Shown: piece after piece, positions 23,387 through 33,797 of the stretch
Layout: every line of letters begins with the position of its first letter
How positions within the stretch are numbered: position 1 is the first letter of the stretch
Assembly: GCA_030765455.1 (NCBI GenBank)
Contig: JAVCCM010000161.1
Span: 1 to 64,000 of the forward strand
Length of the DNA: 64,000 bases
Direction of reading: 5' to 3'
Origin: Candidatus Electryonea clarkiae
GTDB taxonomy: Bacteria; Electryoneota; Electryoneia; Electryoneales; Electryoneaceae
Notes under the pieces: model-generated
What the model was told of the DNA's origin: nothing
Databases searched by the model: none
What the model saw: only the letters and a program-made list of their open reading frames with translations
Made by a program: the position numbers and the translations under genes

Positions 23387-23974
23387 TCAATCATCATCAT
23401 CATCTTCTTCTTCTTCGTCATCGTGATCATCGTCATGGTCGTGATCGTCGTCATGATCGTCGTCATGATCCTCGTCGTCATCATCATCTTCATCTGTCTG
23501 ATCAGCGTTTGATATTTTACCATCTGATGATATCAGGATTTCGTACTCGATCTCTTTTTCTCCATCCTCGATCTCGATTTCCACTTCATATTCGATTTGT
23601 GAGCCTCGGGTAATTTTCTCCGCTTCTTCAATTTCCGCTTGAGGATATGCCTTTTTTATGGAAGCAATGACACCTTCAGGAAGGGATTTAACAGCAATCT
23701 CCTCCTCAATTGCATAAAGGTTTCCATCTTCCAGGAAAATCAAATCTTTTTCGAGTTTGCCGTCCATGATTTCTATCTCAAAATACGTTTTCCCATCAAT
23801 TACTTCTTTCTCACATCCTGATATTTTTGCATCAGGATAAGCCTGCTTAAATGCAGAGTGGATTTTTTCTGGGATGTTTTTCATTTTGCATTCAGGCTTT
23901 TCTCCTGCTTGAGTCATGATACAGGTTGTCAGCAACGCAATAACCATAAGTACGAGTGTTCGCCTCGTAAACAT
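23387..23974 (-). CDS. Periplasmic PepSY-like protein with Asp/His-rich C-terminal tail
   Basis: I use the ATG at 23974, preceded by GAGGAGG; the frame extends 27 codons further up without a ribosome site. The product is about 195 residues: a signal peptide (FTRRTLVLMVIALLTTCIMT), then two copies of a roughly 65-residue PepSY-like (DUF2874-type) unit, each a helix ending in AYPDAKI or AYPQAEI followed by strands (TYFEIEIMDGKLEKDLIFLEDG and IEYEVEIEIEDGEKEIEYEILISSDG). The last 37 residues are almost only Asp, His and Glu, a likely metal-binding or calcium-buffering tail. Such proteins are thought to be periplasmic inhibitors or sensors. The tail is encoded by a low-complexity GTC/ATC-rich stretch that is prone to slippage. 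Confidence 0.78.
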   Translation of the reverse strand: MFTRRTLVLMVIALLTTCIMTQAGEKPECKMKNIPEKIHSAFKQAYPDAKISGCEKEVIDGKTYFEIEIMDGKLEKDLIFLEDGNLYAIEEEIAVKSLPEGVIASIKKAYPQAEIEEAEKITRGSQIEYEVEIEIEDGEKEIEYEILISSDGKISNADQTDEDDDDDEDHDDDHDDDHDHDDDHDDEEEEDDDDD

Positions 23975-24091
23975 TTCCGCCTCCTCAAAAGGATGATTGA
24001 TCTGAAAATACTCTTCTATATGAAAACAACAATTAATAGCAATATTCTTTTCCATGAATTATATTTATTTATGAACTCTAAATTTTGAACA

Positions 24092-25210
24092 TTACCCCGT
24101 ATATATTGCTCCAGGTTCGATCATTTTTCCTTCTGACAGGTACTCAAGGCAATGCGCCATCCAACCGGTTTGATTAGCGAGTGCAAATATTATTGGAAAT
24201 GATCCGACCGGAATCTCCAGGGCATGGTATATTAATCCTGTTACACCATAAACAGTAATAAATATTTCTTTTTCTCCAAGTTTTGATTCTATGCCGTCAC
24301 GAACAGTTTGGTAGATATCCCATAGCAATTCTTCACCTTTATTCTCAAGCAGCTTTTTCGCGTAAGGCTCAAGGATTTTGGTACGTGGATCGTGTGTCTT
24401 ATATATGGGGTGACCGAATCCCGGAAACCTGTACCCCTCGTTCAGTTTAACATTTACCCACGCTTTTGCTTCATCGACAGATTTAAGTTCCAACAGGTTA
24501 AGAAATGCTTTTTTTATAGCCCCGCCGTGGAGATTCCCGGAGACTGCACCCATTCCAGCAAGCACAGCGCTGCCAAGGTCTGCACCAGTCGAAATAACCG
24601 TCAGTGCAGCCAGGGCTGAAGCTTGAAGCCCATGCTCAGCCTGCACTATCATACAGACATCGAATGCCTTTATTTCATACTCCGTTGGCTCCCTTCCCAG
24701 CGCCTGGGTAAGAAAATTGGCTGAAAATGATTGTCCGGGATTAAAAGGATTGAATTCTTTACCGAGTATGTGACATATAGTGGCGGCTGCCAACGTGGAA
24801 CACCATCCCAGGATACCTGCAGGACGACGCCATTGAGCATCCAGCCTTGTATTCTCACCCTGGGGTATGTGACATGCAGCCACCGAAAGCATTGTCCGGT
24901 AGAGCATCAAGGCATGGGTATCATCGGGAAGCGTTTTGATTACAGCCATAGCTTCTTCAGGCGGTTCATGCCAGTTCTCCATATCTTTCCGCCATCGTTC
25001 GTATTGCGAAGCTGTGGGTAATTCACCATGAATTAGAAGGTATGAAACTTCATCAAAAGAACCATGCTCGGCCAAATCCTCAATAGTGTAACCACGATAC
25101 CAGAGTTTTCCATTATCTCCATCAATTTTTGAAATACCTGTTTCGCCTGCAATAAGGTTTTCGAGCCCACGGTCATAAGTTTGTTCCATCATCTCTCTGA
25201 TAGGTCTCAT
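24092..25210 (-). CDS. Citrate-synthase family protein, paralogue B (catalytic Asp replaced by Tyr)
   Basis: A 372-residue protein that aligns over its whole length with type II citrate synthases. Kept: EHGLQAS (first active-site His), GNLHGGA (His at residue 228), GFGHPIYKTHDPR (His and Arg). Changed: the catalytic Asp of the NVDFYS motif is Tyr at residue 321 (ITVYGVTG, a gapless 22-residue match on both sides), the Arg of AVSRMSGW is Asn (ALANQTGW), and the RPR of the C-terminal RPR-x-x-YTG motif is EPG. In citrate synthases that last Arg reaches into the partner subunit's active site. The start overlaps the stop of the upstream paralogue by four bases (ATGA), so the two are translationally coupled. 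It may be one half of a heteromeric enzyme, or may have a different reaction. Confidence 0.85.
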   Translation of the reverse strand: MRPIREMMEQTYDRGLENLIAGETGISKIDGDNGKLWYRGYTIEDLAEHGSFDEVSYLLIHGELPTASQYERWRKDMENWHEPPEEAMAVIKTLPDDTHALMLYRTMLSVAACHIPQGENTRLDAQWRRPAGILGWCSTLAAATICHILGKEFNPFNPGQSFSANFLTQALGREPTEYEIKAFDVCMIVQAEHGLQASALAALTVISTGADLGSAVLAGMGAVSGNLHGGAIKKAFLNLLELKSVDEAKAWVNVKLNEGYRFPGFGHPIYKTHDPRTKILEPYAKKLLENKGEELLWDIYQTVRDGIESKLGEKEIFITVYGVTGLIYHALEIPVGSFPIIFALANQTGWMAHCLEYLSEGKMIEPGAIYTG

Positions 25211-26412
25211 CTTTCTTCCATAGTGATATAGGTTCGGTCGGTTTTTCCGGTGTACTTCTCCCTGGGTCGGTAAAGACGATTGTTCTTTAGATATTCACGG
25301 ACACGCGCGATCAATCCAGCCATTCTTCCCACCGCATAAAAACATGGAATCATTTCAGGTTCAGCACCCAGAAAGTGGAAAAGTACGGCTGAATAGAAAT
25401 TAATATTGACATATATCCCTTTCGGATTGAGATAAAATGAAGCGGTATCCTCAATACTTGTTGCGACCTCTAACAATAATCTTTGTTCAGGGTCTTTAGC
25501 GAATTCTGGAAGGTATTTACGCATGATTTCAACCCTGGGATCAGGTTGACGGAATACTCGATGCCCGAATCCGGGAATTATATATCCCTTGGCAAGCATT
25601 CCCTCAGTCCATGCTCTCGCAACGTTTGCATCACGCAGCCTGATAAACATCCGGATTACTCTCTCCGCGGCACCTCCAATTAATGGTCCTCTCAAAGCGC
25701 CTAACCCTGCAACGATATTGTAGTATGGATCTGCTTTTGTGCTTCCAACCACCAACCCTGTGAAAGTTGGTGCATCGAGTCCGTGATCTGCATAAAGTAT
25801 CCATAATAAATTGAGCAGTTTTACTTGTTCTTTGGTTGGTCTGGTATTCAATATCATGTAGAGCAAATCTTTAGCAAGCGACTGGCGGAAATCGGAGATG
25901 AGTGGTTTAAGACCTTTTCGATAGCGTGCGATATGACCTACAAGCGCCTCCACCTGGCTGATAATCCATACATCTTCCCAATGGTGATGAGCCTTTAGAT
26001 TGTCATGTGGAATAATATCGAAACATCCAAGTGCGGATACAGCCGCGCGAAGCAGCCTGGTTGGATGAGTATCAGCCGGCTGTGCGGCAATTAGATTCAG
26101 AATCTCAACCGGCATTTGTCTGACACGGTGTAGTCTGAAGCAGAAGGACTGGAATTCTTCAGGATATTTGGTCCAGTGTTTCCCTTCTACGAGTAAATAT
26201 GCTACCTCTTCAAAAGTAGCACTATCTGCCAGTTCCTGGACAGGTATTCCGCGGTAGAAAAGCTCGCCCGTATTGGGATTAGCCCATGCTACTTTCGTCT
26301 CTGAGGCGATAACACCTGATAATCCCTGCGATGTTGGTGTAGTAACAGGCCACTCAACCTGCTTGGAACGCCAGTCAAAATCCTTGTCAAATAAATCGAA
26401 TTTTGATGCCAT
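25207..26412 (-). CDS. Citrate-synthase family protein, paralogue A (catalytic His and Asp replaced)
   Basis: A 401-residue protein with full-length similarity to type II citrate synthases and a short extra N-terminus. Kept: ADHGLDAPTF (His), GFGHRVFRQPDPR (His and Arg), AVGRMAG (citrate-binding Arg) and LYRPREKYTG (the Arg that serves the neighbouring subunit). Changed: the His of the GPLHGGA motif is Ile at residue 245 (GPLIGGA) and the catalytic Asp of NVDFYSA is Asn at residue 338 (NINFYSA). On its own this protein should not make citrate by the known mechanism. It is the first gene of a two-gene leftward operon, overlapping the second by four bases. The set of residues kept is partly complementary to the partner's, which fits a heterodimer with at most one working site per pair. 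Confidence 0.85.
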   Translation of the reverse strand: MASKFDLFDKDFDWRSKQVEWPVTTPTSQGLSGVIASETKVAWANPNTGELFYRGIPVQELADSATFEEVAYLLVEGKHWTKYPEEFQSFCFRLHRVRQMPVEILNLIAAQPADTHPTRLLRAAVSALGCFDIIPHDNLKAHHHWEDVWIISQVEALVGHIARYRKGLKPLISDFRQSLAKDLLYMILNTRPTKEQVKLLNLLWILYADHGLDAPTFTGLVVGSTKADPYYNIVAGLGALRGPLIGGAAERVIRMFIRLRDANVARAWTEGMLAKGYIIPGFGHRVFRQPDPRVEIMRKYLPEFAKDPEQRLLLEVATSIEDTASFYLNPKGIYVNINFYSAVLFHFLGAEPEMIPCFYAVGRMAGLIARVREYLKNNRLYRPREKYTGKTDRTYITMEER

Positions 26413-30884: not shown

Positions 30885-31016
30885 TTTTGGGCTTCTTCAA
30901 TATCCAACAATAATCTGACCAAATAATCCGAAATTTTGACTTTCAAAATGGGCAGGAATTGTTTAAATTGACTGGTCAAAGAAATTCCATTTATCATGCA
31001 AAAGAGTTTATATATC

Positions 31017-31511
31017 ATGCCTACTGATACCCACAAAATCACATTTACTATTAACGGCAGAAAGATGGAGCGGACTATATCTCCTTCTTTACTACTGATT
31101 GACCTGATACGTGAAGAACTCTCCCTTAAAGGAACTAAGCCCGGCTGTCTTGAGGGTGAGTGTGGCGCATGTACTGTTCTGATCAACGGTGATGCTATCA
31201 GTTCATGTTTGTATCTCGCTGTAAATGTAAACGGTAAAGAAATAACAACTATTGAAGGATTATCAACGGATGATCGGAACGCGCCTTTTGATCCGGTTCA
31301 GGAAGCAATGATCCAGCATGGCGGCGTTCAATGTGGATACTGCACGCCGGGAATGGTCATGTCGATCAAAGCATTTCAAGAACATTGTGAGGCGAACCGG
31401 TTTGTACCCGGCAGGGAGGAAATAAAAAAGGCGATAGAAGGAAACCTTTGTCGTTGTACGGGTTACACGAAAATTATCGATGCGGTTGAGTCATTGTTCG
31501 AGGGGGAATAA
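31017..31511 (+). CDS. Xanthine-dehydrogenase-type [2Fe-2S] subunit
   Basis: A protein of about 164 residues (171 if the ATG at 30996 is used). Two iron-sulfur sites are visible: the plant-ferredoxin type GCLEGECGACTVLING near residue 40 and the helical domain GGVQCGYCTPGMVMS plus GNLCRCTGYTKI near residues 100 and 137. It transfers electrons from the molybdenum site to FAD in molybdenum hydroxylases (xanthine dehydrogenase, CO dehydrogenase, aldehyde oxidase families). It is the first gene of a rightward operon: its TAA at 31509 is followed immediately by the ATG of the molybdopterin subunit. The next gene but one is the FAD subunit, completing the heterotrimer. Confidence 0.95.
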   Translation: MPTDTHKITFTINGRKMERTISPSLLLIDLIREELSLKGTKPGCLEGECGACTVLINGDAISSCLYLAVNVNGKEITTIEGLSTDDRNAPFDPVQEAMIQHGGVQCGYCTPGMVMSIKAFQEHCEANRFVPGREEIKKAIEGNLCRCTGYTKIIDAVESLFEGE

Positions 31512-33797
31512 ATGCAAAAAGAACTTAAAGTAATCGGCAAACCGATGCCGAAATTAGATGCGGGAATAAAAGTTTCCGGTAAAGCTGTCTATGGTCAGGA
31601 TGTTGTGTTGCCGGACATGTTGTACGGCGCTATACTACGTACTGAATATCCGGTTGCGGAGTTGGTGTCAATTGACACTTCAAAAGCGGAGCAACTTGCA
31701 GGCGTTGTTAGTATCATTACTGCTGATGACGTGGATGTCAATAACATCAGCTACCGCCGGGATCATCCCGCCCTGAAAAAAGGCAGGGTCAATTGTATCC
31801 GTGATGAGATCGCTGCCGTAGCTGCCGAAACCCCGGCAATCGCCCGGGAAGCGTTGAAACTGATAGAGGTTAAGTATAATGTGCAAGAGGGTGTCTTTGA
31901 TCCGTTTGAAGCGTTGAAAGATGATGCTCCGCAGATCAATGAATTCTCTTCTCATGAGAAAAATAAAAACATCTCTCACCCGTTTCACTATGAACATGGC
32001 GACCTCCAGCAGCAGAAGGATAAGAGTGCTCACATTGTAACCAGCCGTTACTTCCTGCCGCGTATGACTCACGCATGCCTCGCACCTTGTGCCATTACCG
32101 CAGATTATTCAAATATTGACAACCGTCTGACACTGTACAGCGTCACACAAGTGCCTTTCCTTTACCAGCGGGATATGGCTCACGTCCTCAAGATGGAGCC
32201 GTCCAGAATCAGGGTCATCCAGACAGTTATTGGCGGCGGATTCGGAAGTAAACTAGATATGTATCCTTACGAACCGATCTGCGCCCTGCTTGCGATGAAA
32301 AGTGGACGTCCGGTTCAGATAACATTCGATAGAGAAGAGGAATTCATAGCTTCTCCAACCAGGCAGAAGATGGTGATCGATCTGACCAGCGGGGTGGATG
32401 AGAAAGGCAAGTTCACCTTCAGGGTAGCAAAAATCATCATGGATAACGGGGCATATACTTCCTGGGGAGCGACTACTCCATTTGTGATGATGCAGACCTT
32501 TTCGTCAATGTACCAAATGCCTGCCTGTGTTTTTGACGCTGACGCTGTATATACCAACAACGTATATGCCGGATCATTTCGAGGATACGGCAACCCCCAG
32601 GCAACGTTTGCGGTTGAGAGAAACATTGATCTTTTAGCGGAAAAACTGGGAATGGATAAAGCGGAGATACGTCTGCTCAATGCCAATTTCAGGGGAGAAT
32701 TCACCGGACAGGAACTGGAATTTAATACATGCGGACATAAAGATGCACTGGAGATGGTCATTGATGGTGTTGGTAAGACGCGAAAAGAGAATGATAAAGA
32801 TCAAAAAAGGTATAAAAAGGGTATCGGATTCGCTTCAATGTTACATGTTGGTGGAGGAGCTAAAATCTATCCATCAGACGGTTGCGGCACTATCCTGAAG
32901 ATGGACGATTACGGTTATCTGACCATTATCACAGGTTCAAGCGAGATCGGGCAGGGTTCGGAAACGGTACTTGGCATGATGGCTGCGGAGGAATTGGGGA
33001 TTGGTATCGAAAAGATCCGCGTGATCAACACTGATACGGATATCAAACCGTGGGATGTTGGAGTGCATGCATCCAGAACGAGTTTTGTCGCGGGAAATTC
33101 CCTGTTAGGAGCTATAAAAGAGTTAAAGACCAAGCTGTCTCCCAAAGCTGCTGAAATGCTGAAAACAGATGAAGATGACCTGGAATATGACGGTGGAACG
33201 GTTAAGTCTATTAAAACCGGTGAATCCATCAAGATTGACAAAGTAGCCAGGCAGATTCATTTCAAAGGACCTAATGATTTATTAACCGTGTCACACTATT
33301 ATGAGCCGGGCAGCAAGTTCGCAGATAAGAATTTCAAAGGCAATATTTCCGGAGCCTATGCATTTGCGGCGCAGGCGATTGAGGTTGAAGTGGATACTTA
33401 CACCGGAAATGTCAGGGTTCTGAATATTCATATGGCTCAGGATGTTGGTAAGGTCTTGAATCCATTGGGATTGGGTGGACAAATAGAGGGTGGTGTCGTA
33501 ATGGGAATGGGCTATGCACTGACCGAAGAGTTGAAAGTGGATAATGGATATATATTGAATCCAAGTTTCCATGAATACAAATTGCCCACTGCCTGTGATA
33601 TTCCCGAGATACATTTTTATCCTATCGAGACAATTGATGAAGCGGGACCTTATGGAGCCAAAGGAGTAGGCGAAGCGCCGCTTATTCCTACCGCCGCAGC
33701 GATAGCAAACGCTGTCTCGAATGCTATTGGCGTTGAGATAGATTCTCTTCCAATAACACCGGAAAAGGTATTACAGGCCTTAAGTAATAAAAGCTGA
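31512..33797 (+). CDS. Xanthine-dehydrogenase-type molybdopterin-binding subunit
   Basis: A 761-residue large subunit of a molybdenum hydroxylase. Visible features: the N-terminal a/b-hammerhead domain (VSGKAVYGQDVVLPDMLYGAILR), TQVPFLYQRDMAHVLKMEPSRIRV, IGGGFGSKLDMYPYEP (cofactor loop), NVYAGSFRGYGNPQATFAVE, SSEIGQGSETVLGMMAAEELG, and GAKGVGEAPLIPTAAAIANAV with the conserved active-site Glu. The FRGYG loop lacks the AYxCSFR signature of form I CO dehydrogenase, so the substrate is more likely a purine, aldehyde or other N-heterocycle. The ATG abuts the stop of the iron-sulfur gene behind a G-rich ribosome site. No XdhC/CoxF-type maturation gene lies in this window. The exact substrate cannot be read. 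Confidence 0.95.
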   Translation: MQKELKVIGKPMPKLDAGIKVSGKAVYGQDVVLPDMLYGAILRTEYPVAELVSIDTSKAEQLAGVVSIITADDVDVNNISYRRDHPALKKGRVNCIRDEIAAVAAETPAIAREALKLIEVKYNVQEGVFDPFEALKDDAPQINEFSSHEKNKNISHPFHYEHGDLQQQKDKSAHIVTSRYFLPRMTHACLAPCAITADYSNIDNRLTLYSVTQVPFLYQRDMAHVLKMEPSRIRVIQTVIGGGFGSKLDMYPYEPICALLAMKSGRPVQITFDREEEFIASPTRQKMVIDLTSGVDEKGKFTFRVAKIIMDNGAYTSWGATTPFVMMQTFSSMYQMPACVFDADAVYTNNVYAGSFRGYGNPQATFAVERNIDLLAEKLGMDKAEIRLLNANFRGEFTGQELEFNTCGHKDALEMVIDGVGKTRKENDKDQKRYKKGIGFASMLHVGGGAKIYPSDGCGTILKMDDYGYLTIITGSSEIGQGSETVLGMMAAEELGIGIEKIRVINTDTDIKPWDVGVHASRTSFVAGNSLLGAIKELKTKLSPKAAEMLKTDEDDLEYDGGTVKSIKTGESIKIDKVARQIHFKGPNDLLTVSHYYEPGSKFADKNFKGNISGAYAFAAQAIEVEVDTYTGNVRVLNIHMAQDVGKVLNPLGLGGQIEGGVVMGMGYALTEELKVDNGYILNPSFHEYKLPTACDIPEIHFYPIETIDEAGPYGAKGVGEAPLIPTAAAIANAVSNAIGVEIDSLPITPEKVLQALSNKS

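Follow-up and report, generated by a model that had tools for sequence, protein, structure and literature searches.

The window analysed here, a stretch of 64,000 nucleotides that represents contig 98 of a metagenome-assembled genome of 5.76 Mb in total, raises the question of what two adjacent paralogues of citrate synthase might accomplish together when neither of them carries a complete set of active-site residues. Citrate synthase is the textbook example of a symmetric dimer whose subunits share the active site, and its active-site residues are cited below in the established numbering of the pig enzyme, in which Asp375 is the catalytic base. The first-pass annotation of the window had described two overlapping open reading frames, both lacking the catalytic Asp and each lacking different other active-site residues, and had proposed that their products form an obligate heteromer.

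Two overlapping citrate synthase paralogues

Both reading frames are present and full-length on the minus strand, and they overlap as described, in an ATGA (25207-25210, minus strand) where the start codon of the downstream gene overlaps the stop codon of the upstream gene. The upstream gene, A (25207-26412, minus strand), encodes a paralogue of 401 amino acids without His274 and Asp375, the candidate Arg-donating, pseudo-active partner. The downstream gene, B (24092-25210, minus strand), encodes a His-bearing paralogue of 372 amino acids without Arg401 and Arg421, the candidate catalytic subunit. The two proteins are 29% identical to each other. Each is matched end to end by PF00285 (A, E = 8e-95 and 318 bits; B, E = 1e-90 and 305 bits; curated cut-off, 27), which places both in the superfamily. 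The AlphaFold model of the A monomer (pLDDT 75.5) has the citrate synthase fold with 1vgp as its best PDB match, the best match of the B monomer (pLDDT 77.8, pTM 0.82) is 1o7x, and the top Foldseek matches of both models are citrate synthases (probability 1.00). Both proteins score under every citrate synthase cut-off of NCBIfam: the best model for each is TIGR01800, with 309 bits (A) and 302 bits (B) versus the 421 required, and the citryl-CoA lyase models give at most 95 bits versus the 193-409 required, placing neither protein among the citryl-CoA lyases. B ends a few residues past a Glu-Pro motif, where canonical proteins continue; A retains the C-terminal tail and carries an additional, conserved stretch at its N terminus. 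A possible 'knob-in-hole' helix after the conserved Ala-Asp (PYYN in A, LGSA in B) was considered and rejected, because PYY is also found in canonical long-type citrate synthases.

The window also contains, directly 3' of B, a gene for a PepSY-like protein (PF11396) with a very long C-terminal tail rich in Asp, Glu and His (23387-24055, minus strand), and, farther away, two genes resembling the iron-sulfur and molybdopterin subunits of a xanthine-dehydrogenase-type molybdenum hydroxylase (30996-33797, plus strand).

The first-pass annotation had left the question whether the genome also encodes a canonical citrate synthase. It does, at C139:45482-46621. All 15 of the pair-bearing genome records that were searched, among which are some duplicates, likewise have a canonical gene, and the possibility that A and B replace an absent enzyme of the TCA cycle was rejected on this ground. 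Because the canonical enzyme is present, the reaction of the pair would not simply be that of a second TCA cycle citrate synthase.

A division of active-site residues between the paralogues

Pig numbering was mapped onto A and B through Thermus 1IOM and Sulfolobus 1VGP. The mapping agrees, after a one-residue offset, with the published set of six residues that bind substrate in 1VGP: His180, His215, His254, Arg263, Arg335 and Arg354', the prime denoting the other subunit (PMC5021468). At the positions of His238, His274 and His320, window A has His210, Ile245 (ATT, 25678-25680) and His284, and window B has His193, His228 (CAC, 24527-24529) and His267. At Arg329, Asp375, Arg401 and Arg421, window A has Arg293, Asn338 (AAT, 25399-25401), Arg363 and Arg382 (CGA, 25267-25269), the last at the cross-subunit position and proposed to complete the site of B; window B has Arg276, Tyr321 (TAT, 24248-24250; a lineage-specific loss of the base), Asn346 (24173-24175) and Glu365 (GAA, 24116-24118). 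All of these codons are on the minus strand, and the alignment around the substitutions is without gaps. Residue by residue, then, the substitutions first noted in A and B are correct for the window. The His274-His320-Asp375 triad is complete neither in A nor in window B. Of the three substrate arginines (329, 401 and 421'), B is without 401 and 421, and most A proteins have all three.

The same positions were tabulated in 12 A proteins and 14 B proteins. No A protein has His at position 274 (Ile, Leu, Val, Gln or Thr is found instead) or Asp at position 375 (Asn, except for His in G011), and all 12 have Arg401 and Arg329; Arg421 is present in 11 of the 12, G011 having Tyr. The B proteins, without exception, have His238, His274, His320 and Arg329, and without exception they lack Arg401, usually replaced by Ile and otherwise by Val or Asn, and have Glu at the position of Arg421. 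Asp375 is kept in 12 of the 14, the exceptions being the window (Tyr) and G033 (Gly), which belong to one subclade where the catalytic Asp is gone from two of four B proteins. Most B proteins other than that of the window have the complete His274-His320-Asp375 triad, and outside the window's subclade it is intact in all of them.

The substitutions in A and in B thus co-occur across relatives as anticipated, and the losses are complementary, with exceptions in G011 A (Arg421) and in the B proteins of the window and G033 (Asp375). The description of both paralogues as lacking the catalytic Asp does not hold as a general rule, since B has kept it in 12 of 14 cases, so it is not the family but just the window and a single relative that call for an alternative base. 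As judged from these alignments, the rule of the family is a clean split of active-site roles, to which the absence of Asp from both proteins is a local exception. Of the 30 columns that are invariant in canonical enzymes (15 rows), those wholly lost in A are S189, H219 and D312 and those wholly lost in B are P217, R337 and R357 (1IOM numbering); they include pig His274 and Asp375 for A and pig Arg401 and Arg421 for B. Losses distributed in this way among invariant columns are evidently not due to chance.

Two relatives deviate further. In G033 (locus L008), A has Arg in place of His320 and B has Gly in place of Asp375, and more of the catalytic set is missing. In G011 (L006/L044), A has Tyr at the position of Arg421 and His at that of Asp375, B keeps Asp, and the cross-subunit Arg is present in neither protein.

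Conservation and evolution of the pair

The nearest named relatives at the A-B locus have been labelled candidate division LCP-89 or Calditrichaeota by different depositors. Among 39 genomes of the window's phylum, 10 encode A and the identical 10 encode B; among 37 genomes from an order of acidobacteria, five encode A and the identical five encode B. The odds of such a match between two sets by coincidence are 1.6e-9 for the phylum and 2.3e-6 for the acidobacterial order, values that ignore relatedness and are therefore inflated. No solo A or solo B was found among these 76 genomes. B directly follows A, in constant gene order, wherever one contig covers both, and the start of B overlaps the stop of A in all relatives checked that have both ends on one contig; in G028, G046 and G651, A and B are on separate contigs, each B fragment beginning at a contig edge. 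Conservation of A and B as adjacent genes, on which the first-pass annotation had staked its reading, is thereby borne out. A further copy in a bin labelled Thermodesulfobacteriota is nested in the tree among the window's relatives and has possibly been transferred or misbinned. The pair recurs as a unit under two to three phylum labels. The survey covered two phyla and one pattern scan over 84,980 species, which detects close relatives only. Samples drawn from the two other phyla (396 and 198 genomes) yielded no second A-B copy beyond the starting genome, so the pair is rare.

The perfect linkage of A and B across the 76 genomes bears on the explanation that each forms a homodimer of its own with a new and different function, the two being merely co-transcribed. 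In favour of this explanation, citrate synthases are usually homodimers or homohexamers (PMC5021468); besides the linkage and the failure to find either gene alone, it has to contend with a B-B dimer that would have Glu and neither Arg401 nor Arg421 at each site, and with an A-A dimer that would be without His274 and Asp375 at both sites. We consider it highly improbable.

In a phylogenetic tree, A forms one clade (100/100) and B forms another (100/100), both among the type II citrate synthases. The distance matrices of A and B are correlated (r = 0.91), with 0 of 5000 permutations equal to or exceeding this value. Mirror trees and co-occurrence are equally expected of any tightly linked two-gene operon. 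In the A tree and the B tree alike, the acidobacterial pairs cluster with the pairs of the window's family, which is consistent with transfer as a unit. An AU test of acquisition of the window pair from another family gave p values of 0.23 and 0.34.

For both A and B, comparisons inside the window's subclade give pN/pS values of about 0.16-0.26, those with the Asp-less B of the window included, and by this measure both genes are under purifying selection. A pseudogene or a sequencing error was rejected as the source of the window's substitutions, the frames being intact and selection purifying, with several residues near Y321 also differing. The broader idea that A and B are degenerating duplicates on their way to becoming pseudogenes might draw on the two of four B proteins in the window's subclade that are without the catalytic Asp. 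It is countered by open, full-length frames with pN/pS of about 0.2, by conservation of the pair between genomes of different phylum labels, and by the identity of the residues lost in all members of each family, which is not the mark of random decay, and it can be given almost no credence.

The genes around the pair do not indicate a substrate pathway, because no neighbour is common to all A-B loci. A class I/II aminotransferase gene is located 3' of A-B in four loci (L036, L037, L039 and L042), in some of which it is followed by a gene for a DUF1858-DUF438-hemerythrin protein, and a gene resembling 2-oxoglutarate dehydrogenase E1 is found downstream in L036 and L039. Assignment of a pathway from these neighbours was rejected, neither the aminotransferase (four loci) nor the E1-like gene (two) being general.

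Some A-B loci adjoin apparent histidine kinases or response regulators (judged by eye), as might be expected if A and B formed a heteromer that is not an enzyme, at least in the window's lineage, and instead served as a sensor or regulator, binding oxaloacetate or a thioester of CoA and acting on some other target. Such a role would accommodate the drift of the window's subclade under purifying selection (Asp to Tyr or Gly in B; His320 to Arg and Arg421 to Tyr in A), and there is a precedent in the catalytically dead CitA of Caulobacter, which still controls the cell cycle (PMC7083601). The kinase neighbours, however, are not common to all loci, and the triad of B, intact everywhere outside the window's subclade, would be hard to explain without catalysis. 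A purely regulatory pair is thus rather unlikely, though it is the rival explanation that we take most seriously.

The proposed heteromer and comparison with known systems

Considering residues and conservation together, A and B are probably the two kinds of subunit, B catalytic and A donating Arg, of an obligate heteromer within the citrate synthase superfamily. We have good confidence that A and B form a heteromer at all; that the site of B is catalytic in most family members also seems probable, with somewhat less assurance. In homodimeric citrate synthase, the last Arg of each site comes from the other subunit, and a C-terminal loop embraces the partner (PMC5021468). The residue pattern fits the arrangement first suggested for the window, a heteromer in which A would give the cross-subunit Arg to the His-bearing site of B. 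The two proteins would pair through the usual dimer interface of the family. B would carry the chemistry, with His238, His274, His320 and Arg329, plus Asp375 in most lineages; A would be a pseudo-subunit that supplies Arg421 across the interface together with the C-terminal arm that B does not have. Each heterodimer would then possess one working site, located on B and completed by the Arg of A, and a second site on A, without His274 or Asp375 and opposite the Glu of B, that is presumably dead. A homodimer of B would have Glu in place of the cross-subunit Arg and no Arg401, a homodimer of A would have neither His274 nor Asp375, and in most lineages only the A-B dimer would rebuild His274, His320, Asp375, Arg329 and Arg421' together. 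A strict exchange of residues is contradicted by G011, where A has Tyr in place of the Arg to be donated, and by G033, where A is without His320.

The reaction of this heteromer may be a Claisen condensation of an acyl-CoA with a 2-oxo acid, or the reverse. The A-B dimer would restore position 421' at the site of B but not position 401, and since Arg401 is always missing from B, a modified 2-oxo acid acceptor or weak binding of oxaloacetate is to be expected; the steadiness of the loss points away from oxaloacetate, at least in its customary pose, as the acceptor. Where the base is missing, in the window and G033, the rate may be slow, another residue may act as the base, or the role may be non-catalytic. 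Because the base of window B is replaced by Tyr, we regard it as improbable that the pair of the window carries out normal citrate formation. An Asp base is thought to be necessary in characterised members of the superfamily. The fullest version of the proposal, an asymmetric two-gene branch in which a dead subunit lends Arg, a 2-oxo acid other than oxaloacetate is condensed and one lineage has dispensed with the Asp base, is offered tentatively, as a possibility that we favour less than its simpler core. If the heteromer is real, it would illustrate cleanly how an active site shared across a subunit interface can convert a homomer into an obligate heteromer, in which the His/Asp chemistry and the Arg substrate clamp could be studied on separate chains, and A-B may reveal a new reaction of CoA esters in poorly studied bacteria.

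No published description of such a heteromeric or paired citrate synthase was found in the open-access literature. In fold, length and motifs, A and B are like the homodimeric type II or archaeal citrate synthases (Sulfolobus tokodaii 1VGP, Thermus 1IOM, Metallosphaera 6ABV), with which they share about 30-36% identity in structural alignments. The active site of those enzymes also uses an Arg of the partner subunit (PMC5021468), but there one gene provides two identical, complete sites, whereas A-B consists of two genes with incomplete sets of residues. The 2-methylcitrate synthase PrpC shares the fold and PF00285 with A and B, which match TIGR01800 (2-methylcitrate synthase/citrate synthase II) below its cut-off; PrpC retains the full His-His-Asp triad (PMC9765439), unlike A, which is without His274 and Asp375, and B, which is without two arginines. 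Citryl-CoA lyase and the citryl-CoA module of ATP-citrate lyase contain a homologous catalytic module and are weakly matched by A and B, which differ from citryl-CoA lyase in being full-length, synthase-type proteins far under the curated cut-offs.

Two divergent citrate synthase paralogues are likewise found side by side in Caulobacter (citB/citC), Streptomyces (SCO5831/SCO5832), Agrobacterium and Embleya. Caulobacter CitC alone does not complement E. coli gltA (PMC7083601). The pairs of the Agrobacterium vitis plasmid pAt (L100:2683-5059) and of an Embleya plasmid (L102:2509-5140) are divergently transcribed and belong to neither the A clade nor the B clade; in each, one partner has Glu in place of Asp375, and the other tabulated residues, including His274, Arg401 and Arg421, are kept. 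Homology of A-B to these two pairs was ruled out by the tree and the residues. These two, the adjacent pairs covered by the residue and tree comparison, may be similar in type to Streptomyces SCO5831/SCO5832 (PMC12323332) and Caulobacter citB/citC (PMC7083601). A parallel to the proposed working of A-B comes from a eukaryotic and unrelated family, as an analogy only: in the deoxyhypusine synthase of trypanosomatids, two paralogues assemble into an active heteromer, each heterodimer interface of which has one site that is live and one that is dead (PMC10820115).
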